Positions 10,746 through 55,891 of a stretch of DNA of 64,000 nt are shown one piece after another. Within the stretch, counting starts at the first letter, position 1; the number at the start of each line of letters is the position of its first letter. Below the pieces are notes generated by a model, which saw only the letters and a program-made list of their open reading frames with translations, made no database searches and was not told the DNA's origin. The position numbers and the translations under genes were made by a program. The DNA is from Phycisphaerales bacterium (GTDB lineage Bacteria > Planctomycetota > Phycisphaerae > Phycisphaerales > UBA1924), in contig JAJDDD010000020.1 in the NCBI GenBank assembly GCA_029260495.1, positions 124,001-188,000 of the forward strand, in the 5' to 3' direction.

Positions 10746-11633
10746 GTGATTCGAAGCATGACCGGATTCGGTGAAGCCTCCGCACAGGAGGCCGGCGCGC
10801 ACTATTTTCTCGAGCTGCGCAGCCTGAACAACAAATACTTCAAGTCTGTGATTCGCCTCCCCGAAGAGTTGCAGGCGCTGGAGCCCGAGCTTGAAGCAGA
10901 GCTTCGTCGCAAGCTCACGCGCGGCACCGTCACACTGGTCGGCAAGTTTGTCGATTCATCAGAAGCCGCTGCTTATGAGATCAACAAGCAAGCGCTCGGG
11001 CGGTATGTCGAGCAGCTCCGCGATACGCCACAAATGAATGGCGGCGATGTTCGCGTCGATCTCGGGCCGCTGCTTGCCCTTCCCGGCGTGCTTCAGCCCC
11101 CTGCCGATGAAGAATCCAAACACGCCCGGGCCCGGGATGTGATGCTTGCGCTGCTGGCAAAAGCATGCGAGCAGCTGGTCCTGATGCGCCAGCGCGAAGG
11201 GGAGATGCTCCTCTCCGAGTTGATGTCCCAGCATGACGCGATCGTGGAAAGGCTTGAGCGTGTCGCGGTGCGCGTGCCCAACGTGGTCGAGGAATATCAC
11301 CAGAGGCTGCGCGCACGGGTGGAGACGATGCTGGCCAACGCCGGCGCCGCCGTGCAGGACGCAGACCTGGTGCGCGAGGTCGCGATCTATGCGGAGAAGA
11401 GCGACATCGCTGAAGAGGTGCAGCGGCTGAGCGCACATATGAAGCAGTACAAGGACCTGCTGGCGGGTGCAGAGCGACCTATTGGACGCACGCTGGACTT
11501 TCTAGCCCAGGAAATGCTCCGGGAAGCAAACACAATTGCTAGTAAATCCGGGGATGCTGAGATCTCGCGTGATATCGTTGAGATCAAAGGCGCTATTGAC
11601 CGGATCAAGGAGCAGGTCCAGAACGTCGAGTGA
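10746..11633 (+). CDS. yicC: YicC/YloC-family endoribonuclease
   Basis: 295 residues from the GTG at 10746, giving the family N-terminus V-I-R-S-M-T-G-F-G with GGGAG about 10 bases upstream. The YicC_N region includes L-E-L-R-S-L-N-N-K-Y-F-K. The C-terminal DUF1732 region includes E-V-A-I-Y-A-E-K-S-D-I-A-E-E and ends in E-A-N-T-I-A-S-K-S, V-E-I-K-G-A-I-D-R-I-K-E-Q-V-Q-N-V-E, a highly conserved tail. Family members are manganese-dependent endoribonucleases (YicC in E. coli, YloC in Bacillus). The next gene is an unrelated phosphotransferase, not the gmk often found beside yicC. Confidence 0.92.
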   Translation: MIRSMTGFGEASAQEAGAHYFLELRSLNNKYFKSVIRLPEELQALEPELEAELRRKLTRGTVTLVGKFVDSSEAAAYEINKQALGRYVEQLRDTPQMNGGDVRVDLGPLLALPGVLQPPADEESKHARARDVMLALLAKACEQLVLMRQREGEMLLSELMSQHDAIVERLERVAVRVPNVVEEYHQRLRARVETMLANAGAAVQDADLVREVAIYAEKSDIAEEVQRLSAHMKQYKDLLAGAERPIGRTLDFLAQEMLREANTIASKSGDAEISRDIVEIKGAIDRIKEQVQNVE

Positions 11634-11655
11634 TCGCCGGAAGGGGTAGGGCCCA

Positions 11656-12813
11656 ATGCCCGATCAGTCTGCCAACCCCAGCCCGAAAAGCCGCGCCATC
11701 GCTGCGGGTGGAATCAGTGTGGGTGTCGCAAGCTCTGGGGCCATGGGATCGGGGGTCGGTTCAAGCTCACAACTCAGCAAATCCAACATAAGCCGGGCGG
11801 GCTTTGACGCCTTCGAGTTGGCGACCGTCCTCTCCCACTACGACGTCGGCGTCATTCAGGGCCTCCACGAGTTTCGCAGAGGATCAACACGCTCGCCCAA
11901 AGTGGTGCTCAAATCAGAGCGGGGCGTCTACCTGCTCAAGCGCAGAGCGCCAGGGCGCGACAATGAACTCAAGGTCGCGTTTTGTCATGGGGTTCAGCTT
12001 CATCTCGCAGCCCGGCGTTTCCCACTGGCGCGGCTCATAGGGGATCGGCGCAGCAACAACTCGCTTGTTGTGCATGAAAAAAGCATTTACGAGCTCTTCG
12101 AGTATGTGCCTGGCAATAGCTACGACGGCTCGATTCCATCCACGCGCGCCGCCGGGCGGGCGCTGGCGCAGTTTCACAAGTGTCTGGCGGATCATCGCCC
12201 GACGTGGACGCCGCGCTCCGGCGGGTATCACAATGAAGCCAAGGTGCTCCCGCACCTGGATCGCATCCCCGAAAAGCTGGGCCTTTCCGAAGGGGACGGC
12301 GCCCACTGCTGTGAGGCCCTCCACAGCGCCTACGCCCGCGCTGCTGATCACGCCCGAGAAGCAGGGCTCGCGGACTGGCCGGCACAGGTTATTCACGGGG
12401 ACTGGCATCCCGGGAATATGCTCTTTCAGGCGAATGGCGAAATCGCCGCCGTCGTCGACTTTGATGCAGCCCGCGTCGAACCTCGGGCTCTGGACCTCGC
12501 CAACGGCGCCCTCCAGTTCAGCATCGTCAGACAGGGCGAAAACCCCGAAGATTGGCAGGATAACCTTGATGAGGACCGCCTCCAGGCCTTCTGTCGGGGG
12601 TATGATGAGGTCGAGGGCTGCACCATCAGCCTGGCTGAGATCAACCTGCTCCCCTGGCTCATGATTGAGGCGCTGATCGTCGAAGTGGTCGTGCCGATCG
12701 CAGCGACCGGGAGTTTCGGCCAGCTTGAGGGGTTGGGCTTCTTGCGAATGGTCCAGAGGAAAGTTGCGTGGATTGAGGAACACGCCCGGCGTCTGACCGA
12801 TCTAATCAGATAA
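11656..12813 (+). CDS. aminoglycoside-phosphotransferase-fold kinase (APH family)
   Basis: A 385-residue protein whose C-terminal two thirds has the APH/choline kinase fold. The catalytic loop is H-G-D-W-H-P-G-N-M-L-F (about residue 250) and the metal site is V-V-D-F-D-A-A-R (about 270), followed by A-L-D-L-A-N-G-A. The first about 50 residues are Ser/Gly-rich and probably disordered. Homologues phosphorylate small molecules or sugars (for example CotS-like or homoserine kinase-like proteins), and the substrate here cannot be told. It starts 22 bases after yicC behind a GGAAGGGG ribosome binding site, so it may be co-transcribed. Confidence 0.8.
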   Translation: MPDQSANPSPKSRAIAAGGISVGVASSGAMGSGVGSSSQLSKSNISRAGFDAFELATVLSHYDVGVIQGLHEFRRGSTRSPKVVLKSERGVYLLKRRAPGRDNELKVAFCHGVQLHLAARRFPLARLIGDRRSNNSLVVHEKSIYELFEYVPGNSYDGSIPSTRAAGRALAQFHKCLADHRPTWTPRSGGYHNEAKVLPHLDRIPEKLGLSEGDGAHCCEALHSAYARAADHAREAGLADWPAQVIHGDWHPGNMLFQANGEIAAVVDFDAARVEPRALDLANGALQFSIVRQGENPEDWQDNLDEDRLQAFCRGYDEVEGCTISLAEINLLPWLMIEALIVEVVVPIAATGSFGQLEGLGFLRMVQRKVAWIEEHARRLTDLIR

Positions 12814-12858
12814 GCTCACAGCTCCAGCGCCGCACACGACGAGAGGACACCCGCCAGC

Positions 12859-13986
12859 ATGATGACTTCCCGCACCTCCGCCCCGCGCTCAAGACCCCTC
12901 GCCCTGATGCTTGCGCTTTCTTTCGGCATTGGCGCGCTGATCAACTTCGATATCGCCTCCGCCCAGCAAGCCCAGCCAACGACCCAGCGCGATGCGACCC
13001 CCCGCCTGGTGCGTCTCATCGACAATCTGGATGACGATGACTTCGCTGTGCGCGAAAGCGCGACGCGGGCTCTCGAAAATCTCAAGGGGTCGCCGGAGGA
13101 TCTCGTCCGTTTGATTGAGTCGCCCTCTGATCTTTCGCTTGAACAGTGGCGTCGGCTTGACACGGTGCTGGAGCATCGTTTTCGGCGCACACCGCGCGCC
13201 GGGCTTGGTGTCGGGTTTGATCAGCAGCACGCTGGTCCGGGTGTCGCGCTCAACAATGTGCTGCCCAACTTTCCTGCCGCCGACTTCCTTCACAATCGCG
13301 ACATTATTCTGCAAGTCGATAAAATTGATCTTCACGCCCGCCCCGCCGCAAGCCAACTGCCAGCTGCGATTCTCTCGCACGATCCCGGCGAGACGATTGA
13401 ACTTGTCCTGCTGCGCGCTGATGCGAAACACGATGACCAGCCGACGGAGTTGACGCTCCGTGTGCCGCTCGGCGTCTACATTGATCTTGGAAACGGCGCC
13501 CCCGGGGAAGGACTGGTGCGCCAGGCGTGGCCGATTCGGCGAGATCGCATCGGCCTGCCGTGGCCAGCCCCCGAGCCCATTCTCGTCGCGCAGGCATTTC
13601 GCACAGAACAGCGGTCAACCGACAATAGCGTCTTTGCGATGGGCGCCGTCGCAGGCGGCCAGGCGCTCCCCCACGATTCCACCAATCGAAGAGCGCGGGC
13701 AACGAGGCGTCGGGTTGTTGATCTGCGGGCTCACGCGAAGAATAGGATTCTCCCAGTACAAATATTGACAAAGGGAGAGCCGCAAACTCAACTTGATGTT
13801 CAACTCAAAGCCCTCGCATCAACACTCGCCCAGCAACAACGCACACTGGAACTGCTTGAGAAGCGGCTCGAGCTTCGCACGCTGCCGGACATTCAGCGGG
13901 GCAACATCGAAGACGAGATTCAAAGAGTGAAAAAGCGGATTGGCCAGATCGCCGCTGCGATTGACGAGTTGAGCCCGGACGAATAA
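12859..13986 (+). CDS. secreted HEAT-like/PDZ-like protein with C-terminal coiled coil
   Basis: 375 residues. A signal peptide ends near A-S-A-Q-Q-A (about residue 36). Residues 45-110 resemble a short HEAT-like helical repeat (L-D-D-D-D-F-A-V-R-E-S-A-T-R-A-L), a pairing often seen in planctomycete secreted proteins. Residues about 113-210 resemble a PDZ domain (G-L-G-V-G-F, then N-R-D-I-I-L-Q-V-D-K-I-D, then P-G-E-T-I-E-L). Residues 310-370 form a probable coiled coil. Domain calls rest on pattern only and the function is unknown. It follows the phosphotransferase gene by 45 bases. Confidence 0.65.
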   Translation: MMTSRTSAPRSRPLALMLALSFGIGALINFDIASAQQAQPTTQRDATPRLVRLIDNLDDDDFAVRESATRALENLKGSPEDLVRLIESPSDLSLEQWRRLDTVLEHRFRRTPRAGLGVGFDQQHAGPGVALNNVLPNFPAADFLHNRDIILQVDKIDLHARPAASQLPAAILSHDPGETIELVLLRADAKHDDQPTELTLRVPLGVYIDLGNGAPGEGLVRQAWPIRRDRIGLPWPAPEPILVAQAFRTEQRSTDNSVFAMGAVAGGQALPHDSTNRRARATRRRVVDLRAHAKNRILPVQILTKGEPQTQLDVQLKALASTLAQQQRTLELLEKRLELRTLPDIQRGNIEDEIQRVKKRIGQIAAAIDELSPDE

Positions 13987-14043
13987 ACACCGTCGCGCAG
14001 CGCTTCGCCGGGCCGCCTCCCCATCGCACGGTAGCATGGCGCG

Positions 14044-15906
14044 ATGCGAACACGACCATTTGCCCTTTCGATCTGTGCTGCTGTTTTCCTCCTGCTGCCT
14101 CTGTGCGCCGGCGCTCAAACGCCCGCCGAAGCGCCGCCCGCATCAGCTCCGGCTGGCGCCCCAAACCCACCCGTTGACGAGCTCCAAAGCCCGCGCGACG
14201 CCATGCGCACATTCCTCGACGCTATGGGGCGGGCCCACGACAACCCGGAGGGATCCGCCGCTCGCACCGAAGCAATCCAACGAGCAATCTCGACTCTTCA
14301 GATTGATGGCCCAATGCGCGAAGCTGGAAGAACAGTCGCGACTCAGCTTCTTGGCGTCATCAATCGCATCGGCGACGTGAATCTCAACGACCTGCCTGAC
14401 GAACGATGGATCGCGCGAGAGAACGTAGCTTCATTCACGTTCTTTCCGCGGAGAAGACCGGGCGCCGACCGTATTCGCGAGTTGGCGCCGAACAAAATCA
14501 TCGAACTGGTGCAAGAGGCGCCGGGCGTGTGGAAGTTCTCAAAGCGCACAGTTCTTGAGATTGGTGAGTTTTACACGCTTATCGAAGATATCGATTCTGT
14601 CGCAGGCTTTGACGAAACCTCGCTCAGTTCCAATCTCACGATTCGCGGCCTGGTGCCGCATGGGCTCAAGGGCAATCTCATCCTGTCGTTGGAATACTGG
14701 CAATGGATTGGCCTATTCATCATCGCGTTTATCGCGGTGTTCATTGACTTCATCGTGCGATCCGTGCTGCGCGTGATTGCTCTAGCTGCGATTCGCAAAC
14801 GAGAAGGGCAAGCTGATCCCAAAACCCTCAAGCGCGCGCTGCGCCCCTTCGGGCTCTTTGCCGGCTCGCTCATGGCTCTTTCCACGATCTGGCTCCTTCT
14901 GCTCCCGCCGGACGCACTGGCGCTTCTCCTTGCCGGCATCCGCTTCCTGCTGACCATCGCCGGCGTCTGGGCGGCGTTTCGTGTCGCGGATCTCGCCTCC
15001 GAAGTCGCGATGAGCAAAGCGTCTGCGACGCGCACGAAAATCGACGATCTGCTCATACCACTGGTGCGCAAGAGCGCCAAAATTTTCATCGTCGCGTTCG
15101 GCGTCGTCTATCTTGCCAACTCCGTCGGTCTCAATATCCTCCCCCTGCTCACCGGGCTCGGCATCGGGGGCCTCGCGGTCGCCTTCGCCGCCAAGGACAC
15201 CATCGAAAACTTTTTTGGCTCCGTCGCCGTCATTGCAGATCACCCCTTCGAGGTTGGTGACTGGATCGTTGTGGGCGATGTGGAAGGCACCGTTGAAGAG
15301 CTTGGATTCCGATCGACGCGCGTGCGCACGTTCTATAACTCACTCGTCACCGTTCCAAATGCAACCCTAGTGCGCACCAACGTCGATAACTACGGCAAAC
15401 GGCGATACCGACGCTTTTCAACGCATCTGAGCATCGCCTACGAGACCCCGCCCGAGCGCATTGACGCATTCTGCGAGGGTGTGCGCGAGCTGGTTCGTCT
15501 TCATCCCTATATGCGCAAGGACTACTACCATGTCTATCTTCATAAAATGTCCGAGTTCAGCCTGGATGTGATGCTCTACGTTTTCTTCGATTGCCCAAAC
15601 TGGGAAACTGAGCTGCGCGAGCGTCACCGATTGCTGCTGGATATTTTGCGCCTGGCGGCGCAGCTTGGGGTTAATTTTGCGTATCCCACACAAACGCTGA
15701 TGCTCCACCGCGGCGCTGATACTTCCGAGCATACATCGCCAACAACGCCAGCGCATGACGCTGATGCAGACTCTGTGCGCACAGGGCTTCACGCCGTCAA
15801 CACAATCACAGCACATGCGCCGTGGCGCACCGAGAAACCTCACCCGGTCATCATCACGCGAACGCCACTATCTGAGGGAATGAAATTTGATGAAACGAGC
15901 GAATAG
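14044..15906 (+). CDS. MscS-family mechanosensitive channel with large periplasmic N-terminus
   Basis: 620 residues. A signal peptide (L-L-L-P-L-C-A-G-A-Q) precedes a periplasmic domain of about 180 residues. Membrane helices follow around residues 218-240, 275-300 and 340-370, with a Gly/Ala-rich pore helix near G-L-G-I-G-G-L-A-V-A-F-A-A-K-D. The MscS beta domain has D-W-I-V-V-G-D-V-E-G-T-V-E-E-L-G and V-P-N-A. Such channels open under membrane tension and release solutes on osmotic downshock. The long N-terminus resembles the MscK/YbdG-type larger variants. The about 50-residue C-terminal tail is polar and unconserved-looking. Confidence 0.92.
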   Translation: MRTRPFALSICAAVFLLLPLCAGAQTPAEAPPASAPAGAPNPPVDELQSPRDAMRTFLDAMGRAHDNPEGSAARTEAIQRAISTLQIDGPMREAGRTVATQLLGVINRIGDVNLNDLPDERWIARENVASFTFFPRRRPGADRIRELAPNKIIELVQEAPGVWKFSKRTVLEIGEFYTLIEDIDSVAGFDETSLSSNLTIRGLVPHGLKGNLILSLEYWQWIGLFIIAFIAVFIDFIVRSVLRVIALAAIRKREGQADPKTLKRALRPFGLFAGSLMALSTIWLLLLPPDALALLLAGIRFLLTIAGVWAAFRVADLASEVAMSKASATRTKIDDLLIPLVRKSAKIFIVAFGVVYLANSVGLNILPLLTGLGIGGLAVAFAAKDTIENFFGSVAVIADHPFEVGDWIVVGDVEGTVEELGFRSTRVRTFYNSLVTVPNATLVRTNVDNYGKRRYRRFSTHLSIAYETPPERIDAFCEGVRELVRLHPYMRKDYYHVYLHKMSEFSLDVMLYVFFDCPNWETELRERHRLLLDILRLAAQLGVNFAYPTQTLMLHRGADTSEHTSPTTPAHDADADSVRTGLHAVNTITAHAPWRTEKPHPVIITRTPLSEGMKFDETSE

Positions 15907-42085: not shown

Positions 42086-43417
42086 ATGAGGAAACGAACA
42101 ACTTGGGTGTGTGGAGGATTCTTCGCAGTGATAGCAGTGGCTGCGTCAGCACAGACCGAAGTCAAACAAGAGCTTCGCCGACTAAACCTAATTGAGTTGA
42201 TTCGAGGAGTCTATGTCGAAGATGTTGCTTTGAATGGATCGACCGCACTGGCGTCCGGTTCAAGATTTGCTCCATTGGGTTCAAGTATAACTGGATTTGT
42301 TCGCGTCTACGACGTGACGACCGGGGAGTTTCACTTTGAACTCCTCCCAGACGGCGCTTCTGGCGAAGCCAGCTTCGGTGTCTCAGTCGCTGTCAGCGGC
42401 GCGAACATTGTTGTTGGCGCGCCCTTTGAAAGTGACAACGGCAGCTCTTCCGGATCAATATACGTCTTCGATGCTACAACGGGAGAGCGTCTGCTCAGGC
42501 TGCTTCCGAATGACAACGCCGAAGGAGACCAGTTTGGCTCCACCGTAGCGGTGAGCGGGACGATCGCTGTGGTTGGCGCCCCCAGAGACATCGACAAGAG
42601 TGTTCGATCCGGCTCAGCCTATGTCTTCGACATCACCACCGGCCAGCAACTCCACAAGCTCCTGCCCAATGACGGCGCGGCGGATGATTCCTTCGGCAGA
42701 GCTGTCGCCATCAACGGGAAGACGGCCGTCGTCGGCGCCTTGGGCTCATCTCGGAGCGCCGCATACGTTTTCGACCTGGATTCGGGCCAGCAACTATTCA
42801 AGTTGCTGCCCGGAGATCCAACCGGCGGATTTGCCACGACCGTTGCGTTAAACGATTCAATGATTCTCGTCGGTTCGTCAAGTGACGACGACAATGGTGT
42901 GGGATCCGGCTCAGTGTATGTTTTTGATAAAGTGACCGGCCAGCAACTCTTTAAGCTGCTCGCAAGCGATGGAGCCTCCCGGGATCTCTTCGGCTCGTCT
43001 GTTGCTGTCGATGGAAATGTAGCTGTCGTTGCAGCAGCACAGGCTACCGGATACGGTTTCGACGGCGCCGCATATATCTTTGATCTGACGACCAAGCAAG
43101 AGCTCTTCAAACTAATTCCAAGCGACGACCCGGATACGGAATTTGGCGAGTCCGTCGCTGTCGACAAGGGAACAGTTGTCGTGGGCGCCAGGGACAGCTT
43201 TACGCCAATTATAAGTCCCGCCATCGGCGCCGCCTACGTCTACAACATCCAATCTGCCACAACATCCGCCGACCTCAACGGCGACGGCTGCGTCAACCAG
43301 ACAGACCTCGCCAAACTCCTCGGCGCCTGGGGAACAGCCGATCTCAACGCCGATGGTCTTTCCAACGCCGCCGACCTCGCCTTCCTCCTCGGCTCCTGGG
43401 ACGCCGGCTGCTTCTAA
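42086..43417 (+). CDS. secreted FG-GAP-type beta-propeller with C-terminal dockerin-like domain
   Basis: 443 residues. A signal peptide ends near A-S-A-Q. About seven repeats of about 55 residues follow, each with F-G-x-S-V-A-V and V-V-G-A-P then G-S-x-Y-V-F-D, the FG-GAP propeller pattern. At the C-terminus two Ca-loop units, A-D-L-N-G-D-G-C-V-N and A-D-L-N-A-D-G-L-S-N, end in L-L-G-A-W and L-L-G-S-W; this is the dockerin-like tail common in Phycisphaerae secreted proteins, here with Cys residues. GAAAGGGC lies before the ATG. Exact role unknown. Confidence 0.8.
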   Translation: MRKRTTWVCGGFFAVIAVAASAQTEVKQELRRLNLIELIRGVYVEDVALNGSTALASGSRFAPLGSSITGFVRVYDVTTGEFHFELLPDGASGEASFGVSVAVSGANIVVGAPFESDNGSSSGSIYVFDATTGERLLRLLPNDNAEGDQFGSTVAVSGTIAVVGAPRDIDKSVRSGSAYVFDITTGQQLHKLLPNDGAADDSFGRAVAINGKTAVVGALGSSRSAAYVFDLDSGQQLFKLLPGDPTGGFATTVALNDSMILVGSSSDDDNGVGSGSVYVFDKVTGQQLFKLLASDGASRDLFGSSVAVDGNVAVVAAAQATGYGFDGAAYIFDLTTKQELFKLIPSDDPDTEFGESVAVDKGTVVVGARDSFTPIISPAIGAAYVYNIQSATTSADLNGDGCVNQTDLAKLLGAWGTADLNADGLSNAADLAFLLGSWDAGCF

Positions 43418-43532: not shown

Positions 43533-46172
43533 ATGCCCGACACACCCGGCCCTACTCCCCCACCAGGCTCAGACGGCGACCATCTTGAGCACGTCACCCC
43601 CGGCCTCGGCTCTCGCGCCGATATGAAACGCGCCGAGGCGGAGCTCGATCAGGGGCTCTTCCAAACCCGCTACCGTGAGGTCACGCTCGCAGCCATCATT
43701 TTCGGCGTCATCGTCGGCGTCGTCATGAACGCCGCCATCACCTACGCCGGACTCAAAATCGGCTTCACCATCGTCGGCTCATCCATCGCCGCCGTCCTCG
43801 GTTTCGGCGTCCTCCGCGGCCTCCTCCGCAAGGGCTCCATCCTCGAAGTCAACATCGGCCAGACCATCGGCTCCGCCGTCAACACACCCAACTCCGGCGT
43901 CATCTTCACCGTCCCCGTCCTCTTTCTCATCGGCGTCCCACTCGTCGACGGCCGCGCCCCCAACACCAACTTCTGGCTCCTCACCATCGCCTGCGTCACC
44001 GGCGCGATACTCGGCGGCGCGTTCATCATCCCCTTGCGAAAACAAATGCTCGATATCGAGCGCCTCCGCTTTCCCAGCGCCACCGCTGTCGGCGCCATCC
44101 TCAAAAGCCCGGGCGCCGGCGCCAAAAAATCCATCGTCCTCGTCGTGGGCATTCTCATCTCCGCCCTGCTCGCGGCGCCCTACGCACTCCCCGCCATCAC
44201 GCGTCCCGCTGCCCAGGAAGAACTCACAACACTCGTTGAAGAAGAAAAGTTCGACTACGAAGCCCTCCTCCGCACAGAGATGATCGCTTCCTGGATTGAG
44301 AATGAAGCCGCCCCGCCTGAGGTCATCAAGCACGCCACGCTTATCGGCGATCTCAAACTCGCCCGCGCCGCCGTCAACGCGGACTGCGAAGATCCGTCAA
44401 TCAGCCCCGCTAATCGCGAAGCACAACTCGACGCCGCCCGCGCCAACGAAGCCAATGTTGAGCGGGAGCTCGAAAACGCCAAGAAGGCCGCCTTCGCCGC
44501 CGTCGCAGCTGCCACAAAGAGCGGGCCCTACGCCGTCACGAACTACCAGGATGAACTCGCCAACCGCGCCCTCGCTGCAACCAACGGCGAACTCGAATGG
44601 GACGCACTCCACGCCACCCAGGCCGGCTGGGCTGCCCACCCCCTCCCCGGCTACGCCGATGTCAACATGCGCATGGGCGCCCAGGAAGAAGCCGACGTCG
44701 ATCACGTCGATTACGCCTACAACGGACTCGGCGGCGGCGACCCGGTCCTCTCCCGCAAGGTTGATCGCGATGGCAACGGCAAGCCCGACCTCCTCATCGA
44801 CGACGAAAACATCGACGCCGGCAGGATCTTCGGCCTCCCCGATGACATGCAACTTCTCTTCGCGCTCGCCCCCTTCGCGCTCGGCGCCGGCTACCTCACA
44901 GGTCGCGCCGGCCTCTACGTCCTCGCCGGCGGCGTACTCAGCTACCTCATCATCAACCCCGCACTCTTCAGCTTCCTCGGCGTCGTCCCCGAAACAATCT
45001 CCGCAGACCAGGCGCCCGCATTCCTCTATCGCGGCGTCAACCGACCACTCGGCATCGGACTCCTTCTCGGCGGCGCCATGATGGGCGTCATGGCCTCCGC
45101 GCCCGCAATCAAAGAAGCACTCAAAAGCATCGCCGCATCAGGCGGCGGAAAAGCCGCTCGCGATGAGCTCGGCATCAAAGTCCTCATCACCGCAGTCGTC
45201 CTCGGCGCCATCTTCCTCTTCGGCGCCGCAGACTTCCTCGCCGGCCGCCCAATCAACACCGCAGATCCCGTCTCCAATCAGGGCCCCGTCTGCGTTATGA
45301 CCTCAGTCAATGGCTACACCGTCGGCTTTGAATCTGAAGAAACGCTCAGCCAGTTCAATAACTTCTCGCAAGACGAGCAAAACCAACTCCTCAAACCACT
45401 CAAAGCAGACTCCCCAGGCCTCCTCGCAAAGTTCGGCCTCAACCGCCACATGCGCGCACTCATCATCGCGCTCATCGGCGCCGGATGGATATGGTTCGCC
45501 GGCATCATCATCGCCCAGTGCACAGGTATGACAGACTGGTCGCCTATATCAGGCATGGCGCTCATCACTGTTGTCCTTGTGCTCGTCTTAGCAGGAGTCG
45601 GAGATCAGCTCGGCGCCGTCATGATCGGAGCGGCGCTCTGCGTCGCCATCACCTGTGCCGCAGACATGATGGCTGACCTCAAAACCGGCTACATCGTCGG
45701 CGCTCAACCCAAACGACAACAAATCGTCGAACTCGTCTCCACAGGCGTCGGCCCCATCATCTCCATGTTCGTTCTCCTTCTCATCGCCGCCGCCAACATG
45801 GAGAAGTTCGGCATCCCCATGGGCGAGGGCACCGACACCACCGCCCCCCAGGCCCAGGCCCTTCAGGCTGTCATCACCGGCGTTCAAGGTGGCGAAATGC
45901 CTTACATGCTCTACGGACTCGGCGCCCTCGCAGGAGCTCTCCTCGGACTCGGCTCTTTCTCAGGGCTCGGCGTCCTCGTCGGACTCTCCATGTATCTCCC
46001 CATGAACTACATCGCCACCTACGGCCTCGGCTGCATCATCAACATGATCGTCGTCAAAGTGAAAGGCCGGACGTGGGCAGAAGAATGGGGCGTCCCACTC
46101 GCTGCCGGCTTCATCGTCGGAGATGCGCTGCTCGGCCTCTCAGTCAACTTCATCGTCCTCTTGCAAAGCTAA
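43533..46172 (+). CDS. OPT-family oligopeptide transporter with large soluble insert
   Basis: 879 residues with about 14-16 membrane helices, in the range of OPT transporters. Typical parts are N-A-A-I-T-Y-A-G-L-K-I-G-F-T-I near residue 69, N-I-G-Q-T-I-G-S-A-V-N near 107 and R-F-P-S-A-T-A-V-G near 180. About residues 230-440 form a soluble, mostly helical insert with E/A-rich segments and D-R-D-G-N-G-K-P-D, an EF-hand-like loop. Family members import oligopeptides or metal chelates. AGGAGGCG precedes the ATG. The next gene, a small membrane protein, is 22 bases away. Confidence 0.92.
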   Translation: MPDTPGPTPPPGSDGDHLEHVTPGLGSRADMKRAEAELDQGLFQTRYREVTLAAIIFGVIVGVVMNAAITYAGLKIGFTIVGSSIAAVLGFGVLRGLLRKGSILEVNIGQTIGSAVNTPNSGVIFTVPVLFLIGVPLVDGRAPNTNFWLLTIACVTGAILGGAFIIPLRKQMLDIERLRFPSATAVGAILKSPGAGAKKSIVLVVGILISALLAAPYALPAITRPAAQEELTTLVEEEKFDYEALLRTEMIASWIENEAAPPEVIKHATLIGDLKLARAAVNADCEDPSISPANREAQLDAARANEANVERELENAKKAAFAAVAAATKSGPYAVTNYQDELANRALAATNGELEWDALHATQAGWAAHPLPGYADVNMRMGAQEEADVDHVDYAYNGLGGGDPVLSRKVDRDGNGKPDLLIDDENIDAGRIFGLPDDMQLLFALAPFALGAGYLTGRAGLYVLAGGVLSYLIINPALFSFLGVVPETISADQAPAFLYRGVNRPLGIGLLLGGAMMGVMASAPAIKEALKSIAASGGGKAARDELGIKVLITAVVLGAIFLFGAADFLAGRPINTADPVSNQGPVCVMTSVNGYTVGFESEETLSQFNNFSQDEQNQLLKPLKADSPGLLAKFGLNRHMRALIIALIGAGWIWFAGIIIAQCTGMTDWSPISGMALITVVLVLVLAGVGDQLGAVMIGAALCVAITCAADMMADLKTGYIVGAQPKRQQIVELVSTGVGPIISMFVLLLIAAANMEKFGIPMGEGTDTTAPQAQALQAVITGVQGGEMPYMLYGLGALAGALLGLGSFSGLGVLVGLSMYLPMNYIATYGLGCIINMIVVKVKGRTWAEEWGVPLAAGFIVGDALLGLSVNFIVLLQS

Positions 46173-47101: not shown

Positions 47102-49417
47102 CTACTTGAGTTCCCGCTCCACACGTTCAATTCGTGCCTGATACGGGCTCCCCCCAAGCGACTCATCAAGAAATCGCAGCCGGCGCACTTCGCGCAGAAT
47201 CATCTCGGTCCGCTCGCCATCATCATTGCGCTTCGCCAGCAGCTCCAGCATCCGGCTCCAACACGCCCAGTACGCCGCCGACCGATCCCCCGACGCCTCC
47301 AGCGCGCCGGCCAGATCGCGAAACTGACTGAACGCCTCTTCATCTTCGCCGCACGCCAAAAGCGCCTCGCCGCGCCACAGCAAATGCTCGCGCACCCGTC
47401 CCTGTTGCGCGATGAGTTCGTCGTAGAGTTCAACAGCCCGACACCCATCGCCCGCAAGTGTCAGCGCCAGCGCCAGGTCCGTGAGTGATGCAATTTTGCG
47501 CGCCTTGGGCGCGTCAGCCCCGCTCGCGAGCCGCGCGTCGATCGTCGCTGTTTGTAGGAATACCGGGGCAAGCGACCCATGTTTGCCCCCTCCATCTTCT
47601 GCCAGCGCGCGCACAACATTCTCACGAAGCGCGCTGGTGAGCGCACGCGAAGACCTAATTTCGCGCCCCTCCCCCCCTTTCGCCCACTCGGCTGCGCGCG
47701 CCAAAACACGCGCCGCCTCCTCAATTTGACCGAGCTCCGTCAGCGCCGCCACCTCCGCGTCAGCAGCCAACGTGCGCATGTCAATCGTCGTCACCGACAC
47801 CTGCGCTGTTCGTGCGCGCTCAAGCAACTCAACCGCAAGCTCCTCTCGCTGCTCACCTGACGAGCGCATCAACCGCTCGCGCGCGCGCTGCACCAGCCGC
47901 GCCTGCGCCGCAGCGGCGTGCTCTGATCCCGGCCCGATCGCCGTAAGCGCCGCTTCAGCCTCAGGTTCAGCGGCGTCAAGAAGGTCAGCAAGTTGCAAAC
48001 GCCACACATCAACCTCAGGCAAATGCGCAAACCGACTCGTACCAACGCGCAGCGCCCGCAAACGCACCGCTCCCGCCGTCTCGCCCGCCGCCGCCGTCAA
48101 ACTGCAAGCCGCGCGAATCGCGTCGACCGCAAAAGGATGGCCAGGCCCAAGATCGGCCAGATCGGCGAGCAGAGTTGCAGCGTCGAGCTGGTCCTGGAGC
48201 GGGGAGAGGGCGCCGGGCGATTGGGCGCTGCGCAGGAGGATGCGGGCGCGTTCCCAGCGGATGTCGGGGGCGACGGGGCCGAGGTCTTCATCCGTGCGCG
48301 CGAGAAGCGCGTCGAGCATCTTGATGGCTGCGGATGTTTCACTTGCGCGGGCGTGGGCGAGAGCGAGTATTGGCGGTGTCTGGGTAGATTCTGTGTCCAG
48401 ATGAATGGATGCGACTTTGTCGAGGACGAGGGCGCGGCGGGCGGCGTAGTCGCCGGCGATGCGCTCGTCGGTGAGCAGTTGCTCGTAGCGCGCGAAGGCT
48501 TCGGCGACGACTCGACGACGACCTGCTTCAGAACTGAGCCCGGCGGCGCGCTCGATGGTGAGCTGGAAGAGTGCGTCGGTGGCGGCGAGGCGCGCGATGA
48601 CGCCGTCAGCGGCGGTGAGGGTTGCTGTCTGCGGCGCATCGAGGGCTTGCTCGAGGAGGCGCACACCAGCCTCGGCATCCTGGGTGCGCCCCAAGGCGAG
48701 GCTGAGACCGATTGAGCTTTCGAGCAGAAGCCTACTGGCGCCGGCGCTGTTGGCATTCGTTCGAGCTTGTTCAAAGGCGGCGCGGGCTCGGTCCGGATCG
48801 CTCAGGATGAGAAGGGCAGCGCCGACGATCAAGAGCCTTTGCGCATCAGTGCGATCATCAAAGGGAGGCATCTCGCCGACGAAGACGATTGCCTGGCGCG
48901 CGTGCTCCTGGGCCATGGTTGCATCTGCGACGGAGCTGGCGAGGAGGATTGCTGAACGGGCTCGCACGAGCGGCAGGCGGCGCTCACCGAGATCGACGAG
49001 CAGTTCGCTGACGCGCTGCTGCGATTTTGGACTCTCTGCATAGTCCGGTTGACGCTGGATCGCGGCGGCGGCGGCTTCGAGTTGATCTCTGGCGCTCTCG
49101 AGGGCGCCAGCTTGACGGGCTGCCTGCTCGACACGAGCGATGTCTTCGGCGCTGGGGACGCCGAAGAGAAGGGTGAGGTCGAGCCCTTCGCCGGCGAGCT
49201 GGGCAAGGATTGCTTCGGCGAGTTCGATGCGAGCCTGGCCGATCCGGGCTGTGCCCGCAGTGGAAACGGCGCTCCGCAGTTCATCAATATGAGATGAAGC
49301 GTCTAATGTGTCTGTCGTTGTTGTCTGCGCAGAAGCATGTGCCATGAAGCCCGCGAAGATGCAAACACTCTGCGCCAAGCTACAAAAGGTGCGACGCGCC
49401 TTGCGCGAGCTGATCAT
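47102..49417 (-). CDS. secreted alpha-helical TPR-like repeat protein
   Basis: 771 residues with a signal peptide (C-I-F-A-G-F-M-A-H-A-S-A-Q). The mature protein is almost wholly helical, Ala/Glu/Arg-rich, with repeated A-R-A-A-F-E-Q-A-R and L-x-x-A-L-x-L-x-x-x-G-D-x-x-R-A-type units that fit tetratricopeptide or solenoid repeats. Its ATG overlaps the stop of the second ExbD by four bases (ATGA) behind GAGGCAAACC, so it is coupled to the ExbBD genes. It is probably the periplasmic partner of that motor-like complex. No enzymatic motif seen. Confidence 0.75.
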   Translation of the reverse strand: MISSRKARRTFCSLAQSVCIFAGFMAHASAQTTTTDTLDASSHIDELRSAVSTAGTARIGQARIELAEAILAQLAGEGLDLTLLFGVPSAEDIARVEQAARQAGALESARDQLEAAAAAIQRQPDYAESPKSQQRVSELLVDLGERRLPLVRARSAILLASSVADATMAQEHARQAIVFVGEMPPFDDRTDAQRLLIVGAALLILSDPDRARAAFEQARTNANSAGASRLLLESSIGLSLALGRTQDAEAGVRLLEQALDAPQTATLTAADGVIARLAATDALFQLTIERAAGLSSEAGRRRVVAEAFARYEQLLTDERIAGDYAARRALVLDKVASIHLDTESTQTPPILALAHARASETSAAIKMLDALLARTDEDLGPVAPDIRWERARILLRSAQSPGALSPLQDQLDAATLLADLADLGPGHPFAVDAIRAACSLTAAAGETAGAVRLRALRVGTSRFAHLPEVDVWRLQLADLLDAAEPEAEAALTAIGPGSEHAAAAQARLVQRARERLMRSSGEQREELAVELLERARTAQVSVTTIDMRTLAADAEVAALTELGQIEEAARVLARAAEWAKGGEGREIRSSRALTSALRENVVRALAEDGGGKHGSLAPVFLQTATIDARLASGADAPKARKIASLTDLALALTLAGDGCRAVELYDELIAQQGRVREHLLWRGEALLACGEDEEAFSQFRDLAGALEASGDRSAAYWACWSRMLELLAKRNDDGERTEMILREVRRLRFLDESLGGSPYQARIERVERELK

Positions 49418-49932
49418 TGGTTTGCCTCAATGACCGCATCGTTTGGCTTGTCAAAGGAAACGCTGGTGAATCCTGCCTGGCGAATCGCGTTCATCGCGCC
49501 AAGAGCATGCTCCCAGCGGGAGCCGGGTTCGGGGACAACGATGAAGCGTTGATCCAGATCAATGAGCGATCCACGAAGCGAGGTGAGCCCCTGGGTGAGG
49601 GCTGCGAATGTGCCGAACCCCTGCACATAGGGTGAATCGCTGGCGAGCGCGTATGCGTTCGGACTGTCGCTCACCGAATGCACGGCGATGCGGATGGGCG
49701 TTACGGGAAGCGAAAAGGGATCGGTCTGCTCGGCGATCTCCTGGGGGGCGGCGTCGGTTGGCATGGCGCGTTCGCGCGGGCGAAACTGAGCGACGAGCAT
49801 GAAATAGACGAGCAGGAGGAAGACGACATCAATCATCGCAGTGACGCTGAGCGTGAGCCTGGCGGCGCGTGCGAAGGTTCGGCGGCGCGAGCGCGGCGCT
49901 CGTGAGTGAGATCGACGCGTGCGTGCGCTCAT
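49414..49932 (-). CDS. ExbD/TolR-type proton channel subunit (second copy)
   Basis: 172 residues: a basic, Arg-rich N-terminus, one membrane helix with the ion-coupling Asp in V-T-A-M-I-D-V-V-F-L-L-L-V-Y-F, and a periplasmic domain. The domain is longer than the standard ExbD by a Ser/Pro linker. It overlaps the first ExbD gene by four bases (ATGA, with GAGGAG as ribosome binding site) and the following TPR gene by four bases. Confidence 0.9.
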   Translation of the reverse strand: MSARTRRSHSRAPRSRRRTFARAARLTLSVTAMIDVVFLLLVYFMLVAQFRPRERAMPTDAAPQEIAEQTDPFSLPVTPIRIAVHSVSDSPNAYALASDSPYVQGFGTFAALTQGLTSLRGSLIDLDQRFIVVPEPGSRWEHALGAMNAIRQAGFTSVSFDKPNDAVIEANQ

Positions 49933-50393
49933 GGCGCGAGCTCCTCAGCCTCGGGCGCCGTGACGAGATCAACCTGCATGACGCCCGCGAGCGAGCAGGC
50001 GGCGATGACCGGATGCACATTTTGATAGCGCTCATCCCGGGCTGCGCGGATCACCGCGACGAGATCGACATCACGAGCGCGCAGGGTTTGGATGAGATCG
50101 GTCAGGGCGGCGATTCCGGGTTCACTCCCTGCGAATGTGCGCACGCCGACGCGGTAGGCGCCGCCGAGTTGACCCTGCATATGCCGGGGAATAACGCTGA
50201 TCGTGATTTTTCCATCGGCTGGAATTTCGATGGTTTCGGCGTTTTGAACGGTTGGCAGATTCAGCTCAAAGTGCTCGGCGTTGGTGAGCTGCGCGACGAG
50301 GACGAAGAAGACAATGAGCAAAAAAACGACATCGACGAGGGGCGTGAGATTCGCTTCGATCGTGACGGGTCCGAGTTTTTGTGTGCGGGCCAT
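49929..50393 (-). CDS. ExbD/TolR-type proton channel subunit (first copy)
   Basis: 154 residues with the usual ExbD layout: short cytoplasmic start, helix N-L-T-P-L-V-D-V-V-F-L-L-I-V-F-F with the conserved Asp, and a periplasmic alpha/beta domain with G-K-I-T-I-S-V. Two ExbD genes in a row with one ExbB is a common planctomycete arrangement. Starts 26 bases after the ExbB stop. Confidence 0.93.
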   Translation of the reverse strand: MARTQKLGPVTIEANLTPLVDVVFLLIVFFVLVAQLTNAEHFELNLPTVQNAETIEIPADGKITISVIPRHMQGQLGGAYRVGVRTFAGSEPGIAALTDLIQTLRARDVDLVAVIRAARDERYQNVHPVIAACSLAGVMQVDLVTAPEAEELAP

Positions 50394-50419
50394 GCGTAGT
50401 TCTCGTCAAGCGAAGATGT

Positions 50420-51271
50420 TTATGCCGCCTCGGCGCCGTTGGTTGAGCGCACGGCGCTGCGCGGGGATGGCTTGGTGGCTGCGGCGTTGTCAGTTTCGGT
50501 TGTCAGGTTTCCGATGAGTCGCTCTGCGGCGAGGGCTGCTTCTGCGGTGAGTGCGTCGATGGTGTTGCGCACAAGCGCGTGGCCGGCGAGCGCGGGGATG
50601 GCGACGACGAGCCCCCAGAAGGTTGTGGTGAGGGCGGTGCCGATGCCGGCGGCGAGGCCGACGGGTTCGGGTGAGCCTCCGGCGCGAACGATTTCCTGGA
50701 AGGCGATGATCATGCCGTAGACGGTGCCGAACAGACCAATCATGGGTGCGACGGCGCCGATGATGTTGAGGGGTTCGATGCGGCGAAATCGCTTCATGGC
50801 GAACTCATCGGCGGCGTTGTCGAGGGCGCGGCGCATGGCTTCGACGCCGTGCTCGGATTCGGCGAGCGCCTCGAGAAGCACGCTCGCGAAGTATGAATCA
50901 TCCTGCTGAAGAAGCGCGACGACTTCATCAGTTTTTCCGTCGGCGAGAAGAGATGCGGCACGATCGTGGGTTTCGTCGGGCATGATGTCCTGGCGACGGT
51001 TTGTCAGCGACATGGCGGCGAGCAAGCCGAGCGAACTGAGTGAGAGCGCGAGCAGGAACCAGATGATGAGGCTTCCGAGCCATTCGATGCTGCCGTCGCG
51101 TGCGTCGTGCTGGATGAAGAAGGCCTGGGCGAAACTGGTGGACTGGCTGGAAGTCTGCGCGAAGGCTGAATGCGCGAACATGAATGCGCCTGAGCTGATG
51201 ATGAGCGCGAGACGAAGTGTTCGGGTGGTGCGGGGGTTGGAAGAGAGTTGAGTTCTTGAGTGAAAGTTCAT
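50420..51271 (-). CDS. MotA/TolQ/ExbB proton channel protein
   Basis: 283 residues from ATG 51271, which has GAGGTGA five bases upstream; the GTG at 51280 overlaps the vWA stop but lacks such a site. A signal-like N-terminal helix precedes a helix near residue 66-88, and the C-terminal part holds the two conserved helices with G-A-V-A-P-M-I-G-L-F-G-T-V-Y-G-M-I (MotA_ExbB signature) and A-L-T-T-T-F-W-G-L-V-V-A-I-P. It should form the pentameric proton channel with the two ExbD proteins. Confidence 0.93.
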   Translation of the reverse strand: MNFHSRTQLSSNPRTTRTLRLALIISSGAFMFAHSAFAQTSSQSTSFAQAFFIQHDARDGSIEWLGSLIIWFLLALSLSSLGLLAAMSLTNRRQDIMPDETHDRAASLLADGKTDEVVALLQQDDSYFASVLLEALAESEHGVEAMRRALDNAADEFAMKRFRRIEPLNIIGAVAPMIGLFGTVYGMIIAFQEIVRAGGSPEPVGLAAGIGTALTTTFWGLVVAIPALAGHALVRNTIDALTAEAALAAERLIGNLTTETDNAAATKPSPRSAVRSTNGAEAA

Positions 51272-51276
51272 CGGCG

Positions 51277-52281
51277 TCACCTCATGCCCGGGTTTGTTGG
51301 TTGGTTGAACTCTGAAGCGCTGATGAATCGGTAGCCGTCTTCGCCGCCGTGAAGGCCCCCGATGGCGCGGAGGAGGCTGCGTTCGTCCTGGCGGAGTATT
51401 TGTATCGCCTTGATGACGACTCGGCGATTATTCGCGCTGGGGCGAACGGGATTGAGCTCATCGAGGAAGGAGAGGATGGCTTGCGCGTCGAGGGGTTTAC
51501 CGTCAGGGCCGGTGAGCGCGCCGGCGGAGAGGAGGAAGATGGCGTCGGGCTTCATAGTGAAGGCGGCGCGGAGTGCGGGGCGCGGATCCGAGGCGCCGCC
51601 GAGGGGAGCGCGATCGAGCCAGTCGAAGATGTGCTTTTTGTGTCTGCGGGTGGCGTCGAGAAGGAGCGGGCGCGTTGAGCCCGGAGGGAGATTGGCGCGG
51701 ATGAAGCCGGCGCCGTCTGCGTTTTGGAAGAGCAGGACATTAAAGCGCTGTGTGGGGTGGAGCGCGGTGATTGATCGTTTGAGTTCGTCCAGGACTGCGG
51801 GCATGGATGTGACCATGGAGCCGGAAGCGTCGACGACGTAGAGGATGTCGCGGGCATCTGTAGCGCCGAGCCCGGAGAAGTTGACGGTGCGGCTGCGCTC
51901 GGGTGGCGCGGCGCGGAGCGGGTCGGCGTCGTCGAGTGTTGTTTGAGAAGGCGCTGCGATGCGGCGCGGTGCGGCGGTTTCGTTGAGAAGGGCTGAGAGA
52001 TCGACAGGCGGCGCGGTGGGTGCGGGGAGGGGGACGGCTTGTTGGGTGGTTTGGGAGTCCGCGGGTTCGGGGGCTGCTTCGACGACGGGGGCGTAGCTTG
52101 GCGCCTCGAAGCTGACCATTGAGGGAGGAGGCGCGGGGGGAGCGAGTGCGGTGGACCAGACGATGAAAAAGGCAGCGACAGCGAGGGCAGCATGGATGGC
52201 GGCGGAGAGGAGCCAGCCGGCGGCGAACTTGCGGGCGGCGCGACTGGAACGGGGCTTATTGGGGGGGCTGGCTGTGTTCAT
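51277..52281 (-). CDS. TonB-like anchored von Willebrand factor A domain protein
   Basis: About 334 residues from ATG 52281 (a GTG at 52293 adds four). A single membrane helix near residue 22-42 is followed by a Pro/Ala-rich linker of about 80 residues, as in TonB, but the C-terminus is a vWA domain: V-V-D-A-S-G-S-M gives the D-x-S-x-S metal site (about residue 151), and strands I-F-L-L-S-A-G follow. vWA domains bind protein ligands through a metal ion. Its stop nearly touches ExbB. A TonB/TolA-like role with a different output domain is inferred. Confidence 0.82.
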   Translation of the reverse strand: MNTASPPNKPRSSRAARKFAAGWLLSAAIHAALAVAAFFIVWSTALAPPAPPPSMVSFEAPSYAPVVEAAPEPADSQTTQQAVPLPAPTAPPVDLSALLNETAAPRRIAAPSQTTLDDADPLRAAPPERSRTVNFSGLGATDARDILYVVDASGSMVTSMPAVLDELKRSITALHPTQRFNVLLFQNADGAGFIRANLPPGSTRPLLLDATRRHKKHIFDWLDRAPLGGASDPRPALRAAFTMKPDAIFLLSAGALTGPDGKPLDAQAILSFLDELNPVRPSANNRRVVIKAIQILRQDERSLLRAIGGLHGGEDGYRFISASEFNQPTNPGMR

Positions 52282-52313
52282 GTGTCTGAGCACAGCTTAT
52301 CGGCGGGATGGAG

Positions 52314-53264
52314 TCAGTCGGTGTTGGCTTCCTGGATCTCGGTGGTGGGCTTTTTGCGCTTTTTTCCGAAGAAGAGGCCGTCGAGAGAGAGGATGCCTGG
52401 GCCTGAGATGAACGCGGCGAGGCCCATGGTGAGCAGGGCGAGCTGCCAAAGAAGACTGCTCCAGGCATTGAAGGAAGCGCCAGCTTCCGCGCCGGTGTAG
52501 GCAAGGTTGGGGAGGAAGCCGAGGAATGAGCCGGCGCTCACGCCTGCTGCGGGGAAAACGATGGGGCCGATGGCGGTGAGCCAGATGGCGCCAGCCATGA
52601 CGCCGACGAGGGCGAGGCCGGAGAGGCGGGTGAGCAGGCCGATGAGGAGGAGGACGCCGGCGAGGAACTCTGTGTAGCCGACGGCTTGACCGAGGAGGGA
52701 AGGCCAGGGATTTTTACTGAACATGTCGGGGAGGAGAGAGGCGGCGCCGTCTTCGCGATGGGTGGCGTGATAGACGAGCAGTGCGACCTGGCGATGGCCT
52801 CGTGCGGTGATGGGTCCGCTGAAGTCGGCGGCGGTGTAGTGATGAGCCATGGGTGGTGCGGCGGCTGGCGCGTTGGCGTCGGGGTTTGGTTTGTTGGGGG
52901 ATGTGTCGTCGGGAGATGATGCCTCGGGCTCTGCGGGTTTATCTGCGAGGCTGTTTTGGGCGAGCATGAAGATGGCGCCGGCGGCCATGTCTTCCAAGTC
53001 ATCCAAGTCTGCATTGACGTTGGAATCGACGACGCGGGGTGGATCGTCGGCGGCGGGGGCTGCTTCTTCGGGGCGGTTGGAGCCCATGATGGCTTGGTTC
53101 TGGACGTGCTCGACTCCCAGGTTGGCGAGGGTCGCCGCCTGGGCGGGCGTGTATTCAGGGGAAGTGAATATCTTTCCGTACCCGGCCCAGAGGAATGTGG
53201 CAGCGAGCACGAGCCTGATGATGCAAGGCGTGCAGCAGAGGCAGAGTTTGTCACGGAACCGCAT
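52314..53264 (-). CDS. DoxX-family membrane protein with large inserted loop
   Basis: 316 residues from ATG 53264. The N-terminus is cysteine-rich (C-L-C-C-T-P-C), followed by a helix with F-L-W-A-G-Y-G-K-I-F, the DoxX signature. An insert of about 120 Pro/Ala/Asp-rich residues separates it from three more helices (L-A-G-V-L-L-L-I-G-L-L-T-R-L is typical). DoxX proteins are membrane parts of various oxidoreductase-type complexes. It ends 32 bases before the vWA start on the same strand and may be the first gene of the ExbBD operon. Confidence 0.8.
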   Translation of the reverse strand: MRFRDKLCLCCTPCIIRLVLAATFLWAGYGKIFTSPEYTPAQAATLANLGVEHVQNQAIMGSNRPEEAAPAADDPPRVVDSNVNADLDDLEDMAAGAIFMLAQNSLADKPAEPEASSPDDTSPNKPNPDANAPAAAPPMAHHYTAADFSGPITARGHRQVALLVYHATHREDGAASLLPDMFSKNPWPSLLGQAVGYTEFLAGVLLLIGLLTRLSGLALVGVMAGAIWLTAIGPIVFPAAGVSAGSFLGFLPNLAYTGAEAGASFNAWSSLLWQLALLTMGLAAFISGPGILSLDGLFFGKKRKKPTTEIQEANTD

Positions 53265-53450: not shown

Positions 53451-53534
53451 GCGGGCGTGGCGGAATTGGCAGACGCGCGGGATTTAGGTTCCCGTGTCCA
53501 TTTGGACGTGGAGGTTCGAGCCCTCTCGCCCGCA
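53451..53534 (+). tRNA. tRNA-Leu, anticodon UAG
   Basis: The cloverleaf closes: acceptor GCGGGCG (53451-53457) pairs with CGCCCGC (53527-53533) and discriminator A at 53534. The anticodon stem CGGGA / TCCCG encloses loop TTTAGGT with anticodon TAG at 53485-53487. The long variable arm (GTCCATTTGGAC) is a type II feature of leucine tRNA. T-arm contains GTTCGAGCC. CCA is not encoded. Confidence 0.95.
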
Positions 53535-54018: not shown

Positions 54019-54154
54019 GCGGGCGGAGCCGGGAAAACCACGGTTCTCGGTGTTATAAGCAGCTGCCGCTCCGAATACCAAGATTTTGCTATCAAAGCGA
54101 GTTTCCCTGCGAATACGATGTGGTCATCGCACATTTTTTTTCGGAGGATCTCCC

Positions 54155-55891
54155 ATGAAGAAGCATGCGTTGAGCTCCGCTGCTGTTCTTGTTGTTGTGG
54201 CTGGGTCGACGCAGGCACTCGGAGCGGGGCCGTTTGGCGCGGTGTTCGAGCTGTCGAGCCTGAACGGCGCCAACGGCTTTGTTATCAACGGCATCGACGC
54301 AGACGACCGCAGTGGTCGTTCTGTTTCCGCTGCCGGCGATGTGAACGGCGACGGTGTGGACGACCTCATCATCGGGACTCGCTTCGCTGATCCGAACGGC
54401 TTCTCCAGCGGCGAGAGCTATGTGGTCTTCGGCGGCGCGGGCGTCGGCGCGAAGGGCGCTGTCGAGTTCTCCAGCCTGAACGGAACCGACGGCTTTGTTC
54501 TCAATGGCATCGACGCCTACGACTACAGCGGCCGTTCTGTCTCCGCTGCTGGCGATATGAATGGGGACGGCTTCGACGACGTCATCATCGGGGCATTCCA
54601 CGCCGATCCGAACGGCTTCTACAGCGGTGAGAGCTATGTTGTCTTTGGCGGCGCGAGTGTGGGCGCAGGCGGCGCCATTGAACTTTCCAACCTGAACGGA
54701 ACGAACGGATTCGTCCTCTTCGGGGTCGGACCGAGCGACCGCAGCGGCGGTTCCGTCTCCTCGGCCGGCGACGTGAACGGCGATGGCATGGACGATGTCA
54801 TCATCGGAGCCCATGGCAAGAGCTATGTGGTCTTCGGTGGCGAAAGCGTTGGCGCGGATGGGTTCATTCTGCTCTCCAACCTCAACGGAACCAACGGTTA
54901 TGTCATCAACGGCATTGACGCGGGCGACGGTAGCGGCGGTTCCGTCTCCGCCGCCGACGACGTGAACGGTGACGGCGTCGACGACGTCATCATCGGGGCC
55001 CACTTCGCTGATCCGAATGGCTTCTCCAGCGGCGAGAGCTATGTGGTCTTCGGCGGCGCGGGTGTGGGCGCGAGCGGCGCCTTCGAACTCTCCAGCTTGA
55101 ACGGAACCAACGGCTACGTCATCAACGGCGTCGACGAGGGCGATTTCAGTGGCGTTTCCGTCTCTCTGGCGGGAGACGTGAACGGTGACGGCGACGGCGA
55201 TCTCATCATCGGGGCCTCCGCCGCCGATCCGTGCGATGTCTTGAATAGCGGCGCGAGCTATGTGATCTTCGGCGGGGCCAATGTTGGCGCGAGCGGGACC
55301 GTTGCTCTCTCCTTCCTGACCGGATTCAACGGCTACGTCCTCAAGGGCGTCGATGCCTTCGACCGCAGTGGCAATTCCGTCTCCGCCGCTGGTGATGTCA
55401 ACGGTGACGGCATTGACGATGTCATCGTCGGCGCCTATCTCGCCGATCCGAACGGCGGCGCTTCAGGGGAGACGTATGTGGTTTTCGGCAGAACGAGTGT
55501 GGTCTATGGCGGCGCCATCGAACTTTCTTCCCTGGACGGAACCAACGGCTTCGTCCTCAACGGCGTCGACGCGGGCGACGAAAGTGGTTTTTCCGTTTCC
55601 GAAGCTGGGGACATCAACGGCGATGGAATTGACGACCTCATCATCGGGGCCCTCTACGCAGCCCCGAACAGCATGAACTCAGCAGGCGAGAGTTATGTGG
55701 TGTTCGGCAGGAGGTTCAATCCTGCAGACTTGAATTGCGACGGCGTTGTGAACGCCTTTGACCTCGCGACATTGCTGGGGAGTTGGGGTCCGTGCCCGCC
55801 GGCGCCGAACGCGTGCGCTGCTGATCTTAATGGCGACGGCGTCGTGAACGCATTTGACCTGGCGCTACTGTTTGGTTCGTGGGGCTCTTGA
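54155..55891 (+). CDS. secreted FG-GAP repeat protein with C-terminal dockerin-like domain
   Basis: 578 residues from ATG 54155, with CGGAGGATCT upstream; the frame opens earlier at 54086 without support. A signal peptide ends near A-L-G-A-G. Seven tandem units of about 73 residues follow, each with G-R-S-V-S-A-A-G-D-V-N-G-D-G-V-D-D and then E-S-Y-V-V-F-G-G, the FG-GAP/integrin-alpha propeller pattern with Ca-binding D-x-N-x-D-G loops. Unit three lacks about ten residues. The C-terminus has two dockerin-like loops, A-D-L-N-C-D-G-V-V-N and A-D-L-N-G-D-G-V-V-N. Probably an exported or surface protein. Confidence 0.85.
   Translation: MKKHALSSAAVLVVVAGSTQALGAGPFGAVFELSSLNGANGFVINGIDADDRSGRSVSAAGDVNGDGVDDLIIGTRFADPNGFSSGESYVVFGGAGVGAKGAVEFSSLNGTDGFVLNGIDAYDYSGRSVSAAGDMNGDGFDDVIIGAFHADPNGFYSGESYVVFGGASVGAGGAIELSNLNGTNGFVLFGVGPSDRSGGSVSSAGDVNGDGMDDVIIGAHGKSYVVFGGESVGADGFILLSNLNGTNGYVINGIDAGDGSGGSVSAADDVNGDGVDDVIIGAHFADPNGFSSGESYVVFGGAGVGASGAFELSSLNGTNGYVINGVDEGDFSGVSVSLAGDVNGDGDGDLIIGASAADPCDVLNSGASYVIFGGANVGASGTVALSFLTGFNGYVLKGVDAFDRSGNSVSAAGDVNGDGIDDVIVGAYLADPNGGASGETYVVFGRTSVVYGGAIELSSLDGTNGFVLNGVDAGDESGFSVSEAGDINGDGIDDLIIGALYAAPNSMNSAGESYVVFGRRFNPADLNCDGVVNAFDLATLLGSWGPCPPAPNACAADLNGDGVVNAFDLALLFGSWGS
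54242..55718 (+). repeat. seven tandem coding repeats of about 219 bp
   Basis: These are the FG-GAP units of the gene above. The repeated core reads, in protein, S-L-N-G-T-N-G-F-V-x-N-G near the start of each unit and D-D-x-I-I-G-A in the middle. Unit 3 is about 30 bp shorter. High internal identity between units suggests recent duplication or gene conversion. Confidence 0.75.

Follow-up and report, generated by a model that had tools for sequence, protein, structure and literature searches.

A candidate vWA-type force transducer encoded with an ExbB/ExbD motor and a TPR protein in a Phycisphaerales bacterium

Six minus-strand genes for DoxX, vWA, ExbB, ExbD1, ExbD2 and TPR proteins, identified by open reading frame coordinates and Pfam at 47102-53264 of the 64,000-nucleotide stretch of DNA that was analysed (the window), probably encode a periplasmic force transducer of the vWA class that is driven by the proton motive force (Table 1). 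The class itself was published previously, and the value added here is comparative. Williams-Jones et al. 2025 predicted vWA force transducers with the same partners in Planctomycetes; the available part of their report describes an anchor helix with a conserved Ser and His, a Pro-rich linker and a vWA end domain, encoded beside a TolQ-like gene, two TolR-like genes and a TPR gene (PMC12204202). The window joins this class on every testable feature in that part of the report, since the Ser/His helix, the Pro-rich disordered linker, the vWA domain, the motor genes and the adjacent TPR gene were all found. We infer the complex, its stoichiometry, its force and its target as follows. ExbB, probably as a pentamer, and an ExbD1-ExbD2 pair would constitute the motor; the vWA protein would dock on ExbB through its Ser26-x3-His30 helix, like TonB and TolA, and its Pro/Ala-rich linker would span the periplasm. 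The vWA domain and the TPR solenoid would be coupled into one periplasmic arm for which a complete metal site is not needed, and proton flow would set this arm moving or pulling on a target in the envelope, other than a TonB-dependent receptor or TolB.

Table 1. Features of the gene cluster and its flanks (positions in the window)
Feature	Position	Strand	Evidence or remark
DoxX-family membrane protein, 316 aa	52314..53264	-	Pfam DoxX 2.3e-12
vWA force-transducer candidate, 334 aa, ATG start	51277..52281	-	Predicted structure, Foldseek, alignment
ExbB/TolQ-type motor subunit, 283 aa, ATG start	50420..51271	-	Pfam MotA_ExbB 4.4e-26
ExbD1, 154 aa	49929..50393	-	Pfam ExbD 1.1e-18
ExbD2, 172 aa	49414..49932	-	Pfam ExbD 6.1e-11
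TPR-solenoid protein, 771 aa	47102..49417	-	Family profile E 1.5e-163
tRNA-Leu	53451-53534	+	Directly upstream of the operon, opposite strand
Secreted-looking protein	42086-43417	+	FG-GAP-like repeats (by eye), dockerin-like C-terminus
OPT oligopeptide transporter	43533-46172	+	Pfam 3e-48
Secreted-looking protein	54086-55891	+	FG-GAP-like repeats (by eye), dockerin-like C-terminus

The tight packing of the six genes was as originally predicted in coordinates, strand, gaps and overlaps: 32 bases separated DoxX from vWA, 5 bases vWA from ExbB and 26 bases ExbB from ExbD1, while ExbD1/ExbD2 and ExbD2/TPR overlapped by 4 bases each. The DoxX protein carried a long Ala/Pro-rich insert behind its first helix, ExbB a signal-like segment at its N-terminus, and the TPR protein an N-terminal signal-like sequence (by eye). 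Pfam matches of the vWA gene product (VWA_3, 0.005) and of the TPR protein (TPR_16, 0.012) were below the cut-off; the latter was placed in its family by profiles of its relatives and by the Pfam TPR matches of those relatives. One of the two secreted-looking proteins lay on either side of the region, and a 307-aa frame downstream, with a weak SHOCT match, overlapped the OPT transporter gene. None of the six proteins matched PADLOC anti-phage models (e.g., Zorya) at E 0.01, and a role in anti-phage defence was rejected on that basis.

The vWA protein consisted of an anchor helix (residues 13-46), a linker (about 47-131) with 19 Pro and 18 Ala in 85 residues, and a vWA domain (about 132-325). 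In the structure model the helix and the domain had pLDDT values mostly of about 90-98, the linker had low pLDDT and was disordered, and Foldseek retrieved vWA domains. The anchor helix contained Ser26-x3-His30, a motif of the TonB/TolA type. When 63 homologues were aligned, only His30 and the start Met were invariant beyond the vWA domain, and Ser26 was present in at least 90% of them. Of the motor-adjacent vWA proteins that could be read at this site, 76 of 78 had Ser-x3-His; in the control set, other hydrophobic segments at protein N-termini encoded in the same loci, it was present in 5 of 431. The TonB-like topology of the original prediction (an anchor helix, then a Pro-rich linker and a globular domain at the end) was supported. 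In E. coli, Ser16 and His20 of TonB contact Ser34 and Trp38 of ExbB, linked to Pro190 (PMC12215075), and in the AF3 model presented in the available part of the class report the helix docks on the side of the motor through the conserved His (PMC12204202). A point against the transducer reading is that the Leu and second Ser of the SHLS motif were both absent in the window, their positions being taken by Ala37 and Val41; these two residues are described as less well conserved in Ton (PMC12215075).

Residues of the proton channel were retained in the motor proteins, in agreement with the earlier assignment of ExbB/ExbD as a motor. Thr183, Thr217 and Pro226 were kept in all 78 ExbB orthologues, and Thr212 in 74 of 78. 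Among the equivalents of the TonB-docking residues, Pro226 and also Trp71 (69/78) were kept; the docking Ser was kept in only 36 of 78, another point against the transducer reading. The proton-site Asp was present in 74 of 74 ExbD1 and 73 of 74 ExbD2 homologues (147 of 148 together). ExbD1 and ExbD2 formed separate clades across families, and the best branch of the ExbD tree grouped 73 ExbD1 rows with none from ExbD2, at a support of 0.977. The clade split and the retained Asp fit a conserved pair of unlike ExbDs.

Motor subunits, a Ser-x3-His helix and a Pro-rich linker are common to this cluster and TonB-ExbB-ExbD, and an ordinary TonB uptake system working through TonB-dependent receptors would account for them. 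However, the vWA domain stands in place of the TonB C-terminal domain (no TonB match in the cluster at E 0.1 in Pfam), the two ExbDs differ from each other, and no PF00593 receptor match was obtained in this genome, which is 96.8% complete. Across the order, receptors were present in 57 of 151 genomes, whereas a vWA match, in some cases to a paralogue, was present in 142 of 151. A separate TonB_2-like protein is also encoded elsewhere in the genome. The uptake reading is very improbable, being nearly refuted by the absence of receptors and of the TonB C-terminal domain. This TonB_2-like protein, encoded near a lone ExbD at locus L164 (G000:C16:84000-103000, positions 7421-8437, minus strand), has 338 aa and a Ser-x3-His helix, and its TonB_2 match is weak; it is possibly the real TonB of a genome without TonB-dependent receptors.

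The best solved relatives of the window ExbB were TolQ and ExbB, with TolQ the closest, which is in line with a replacement of Tol-Pal: at division the machine would pull on a partner in the outer membrane or the peptidoglycan, and the TPR protein would stand in for CpoB. Like Tol-Pal (TolQ-TolR-TolA-TolB-Pal-CpoB), the cluster has a TolQ-like motor and a TPR gene in last position, and the genome had no PF04052 match for the TolB N-terminal domain (TolB_N) and contained three genes with OmpA-like domains, one of them adjoining an ExbB/MotA gene. However, none of the three lay in the cluster, which was also without TolB, Pal and the TolA C-terminal domain, and the TPR proteins tested against Pfam matched generic TPR families only. 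We regard this role as rather unlikely; it is a guess at the target and is compatible with the force-transducer reading.

Gene neighbourhoods were compared in 119 loci fetched from one order, the window counted, which belonged to families f1-f6; the named relatives were mostly Phycisphaerae/Phycisphaerales bins. Profiles of vWA were built from unfused proteins, as fused ones carry their TPR part into the profile. A scan of the genome contigs with the single vWA sequence of the window gave no match; an alignment-based vWA scan gave 80 loci. ExbB/ExbD genes adjoined the vWA gene in 79 of the 119 loci, and vWA, ExbB, at least two ExbDs and TPR occurred together in 71, so that the synteny check proposed with the original prediction came out positive. 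DoxX was directly upstream of vWA in 24/39 f1, 34/36 f2, 1/1 f3, 6/6 f4 and 0/37 f5-f6 loci, that is, beside the vWA gene in 65 of 82 fetched loci when f1-f4 were pooled. Many f2-f6 loci, but no f1 locus, had an additional gene between vWA and ExbB, its product of about 350 aa giving weak TPR matches. The operon was split in f4, where the ExbB orthologue was elsewhere in the genome (324-334 bits). In one f2 genus, the three genomes without any vWA match were also without an ExbB orthologue, which speaks for the transducer reading. Chance neighbourhood, in which the genes would not make up one system, could be argued from the variable presence of DoxX and the 350-aa gene. However, the same order was kept in 71 of 119 loci and the two ExbD clades were kept in order; synteny refutes this explanation, to which we assign practically no probability.

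The vWA domain had been predicted to replace the TonB fold and to carry a metal site with which it gripped a periplasmic partner. The predicted structure and Foldseek upheld the fold, but the metal site (MIDAS) was incomplete: D-A-S-G-S was present in the window, Thr was replaced by Ser and the last Asp ('TDG') by Ala ('LLSAG'). In the motor-adjacent proteins, D-x-S-x-S was kept in 76 of 79 with Thr mostly Ser, and the last Asp in 36 of 79, mainly in families f5 and f6. In f1 vWA proteins without a motor, the third residue of D-x-S-x-S was mostly Ala/Pro and the last Asp mostly Arg. An independent-pairs test of metal-site decay against motor loss yielded one pair only and had no power, the loss being a single change on the tree. 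Because the site is incomplete in the window, degenerate in relatives and lost across most of its family, a metal-dependent grip is unlikely as a general mechanism, and that part of the prediction was not supported.

Loss of the motor was extensive in f1, the family of the window. An ExbB orthologue was present in 13 of 61 f1 genomes, the window counted (at least 200 bits; 47-60% identity among the other 12), and the remaining f1 genomes had only ExbB paralogues of at most 114 bits. When 20 f1 genomes lacking the motor or vWA were searched by profile, again only paralogues (at most 174 bits) were recovered, and the ExbB orthologues in f4 and in genome G082 scored at least 324 bits in the same search. 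The dedicated ExbB was thus absent genome-wide in most f1 genera. Where the motor was gone in f1, vWA and TPR were adjacent in 11 fetched loci and a single protein in 12 (23 genomes); the TPR part of these 12 fusions was recognized by profile in 11 and by length alone in 1. On the vWA tree, in which many forks were weak, a single change was required for motor loss and five for the fusion state.

A classic sign that two proteins act jointly is their fusion in some genomes when others encode them apart. The region homologous to the TPR protein in a fused relative was predicted to be a helical solenoid; the model of the fused protein had a pTM of 0.50 and establishes no vWA-TPR interface, and Foldseek retrieved generic TPR scaffolds only (TM-scores about 0.1-0.27). 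A vWA-TPR partnership is supported since the two proteins remain adjacent or fused where the motor is gone, and this part of the predicted grip on a periplasmic partner, perhaps the TPR protein, stood. Given that vWA and TPR can occur as a single polypeptide, the TPR solenoid seems closer to a fixed extension of the arm than to a remote partner to be seized.

That many relatives retain vWA-TPR but not the dedicated motor is a further point against the transducer reading and may favor a motor-independent vWA-TPR scaffold of the envelope, with the motor as an accessory that can be dropped. Compared by architecture, the Bat operon (BatA/B vWA, BatC TPR) shares with these relatives a membrane vWA protein, a TPR protein and vWA-TPR fusions; to our knowledge, Bat operons have no ExbB/ExbD. 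The vWA-TPR combination is also found among Bat proteins, and Leptospira biflexa has a batB-batC fusion (PMC3557215). However, a scaffold would not need Ser-x3-His, yet each of the 36 vWA proteins that could be read and had no motor beside them kept this motif (among them five from f4 and one from f6 with an orthologous motor elsewhere), and in motorless proteins it persisted over long branches of the tree with other helix positions varying. Moreover, all searched genomes held ExbDs, and nearly all, every named motorless one included, held at least one ExbB paralogue; the motorless genome G092 has just one. A pure scaffold is therefore judged improbable.

The conservation of Ser-x3-His suggests that the helix of motorless vWA proteins may still dock on some ExbB; in the ExbB paralogues of these genomes the first helix aligned poorly and the docking site was unreadable. 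E. coli Ton and Tol motors partly substitute for each other (PMC12215075), so sharing of a motor has precedent. We tentatively propose, with slightly less than even confidence, that most of f1 lost the dedicated motor and kept the docking Ser/His, and so would be driven in trans by shared or paralogous ExbB-ExbD; several lineages would have fused transducer and TPR effector into a natural single-protein arm, and the window would represent the form before the loss. As judged from the compared sequences, the constant core is the vWA-TPR pair; metal is not required, and loss of the dedicated motor can leave the docking residues in place. Overall, topology, motor residues, synteny and the vWA-TPR partnership spoke for the proton-driven machine that had been predicted, apart from its metal-dependent grip. 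Unlike the class account in the available part of its report, the loci compared here included a DoxX neighbour in four families, the extra 350-aa TPR-like gene in others, a degenerate metal site and, in f1, motor loss, vWA-TPR fusion and retained docking residues (PMC12204202).

Two further motor clusters were observed in the genome. The first, at locus L161 (G000:C9:680000-699000, positions 4076-13533), is paralogous to that of the window and contains, in order, a vWA protein with Ser-x3-His, a 417-aa protein, ExbB, two ExbDs and proteins of 920 and 941 aa; similar clusters were found in genomes G036, G143 and G095. The second, at locus L162 (G000:C5:1-20000, positions 6118-15405), has a 1177-aa TPR protein, ExbB, ExbD and a 1413-aa PD40 beta-propeller in a row and is perhaps Tol-like.

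Among machines passing proton energy from the inner membrane to the outer envelope, Ton and Tol have been studied best. The motorless and fused relatives are natural experiments that point to the TPR protein as the partner and argue against a metal-binding mechanism, and the motorless ones make motor sharing testable by a single His mutation. Planctomycetes are a phylum with a poorly understood cell envelope, and another widespread class of such machines, largely apart from TonB receptors and TolB, would explain some of their many ExbB/ExbD genes.
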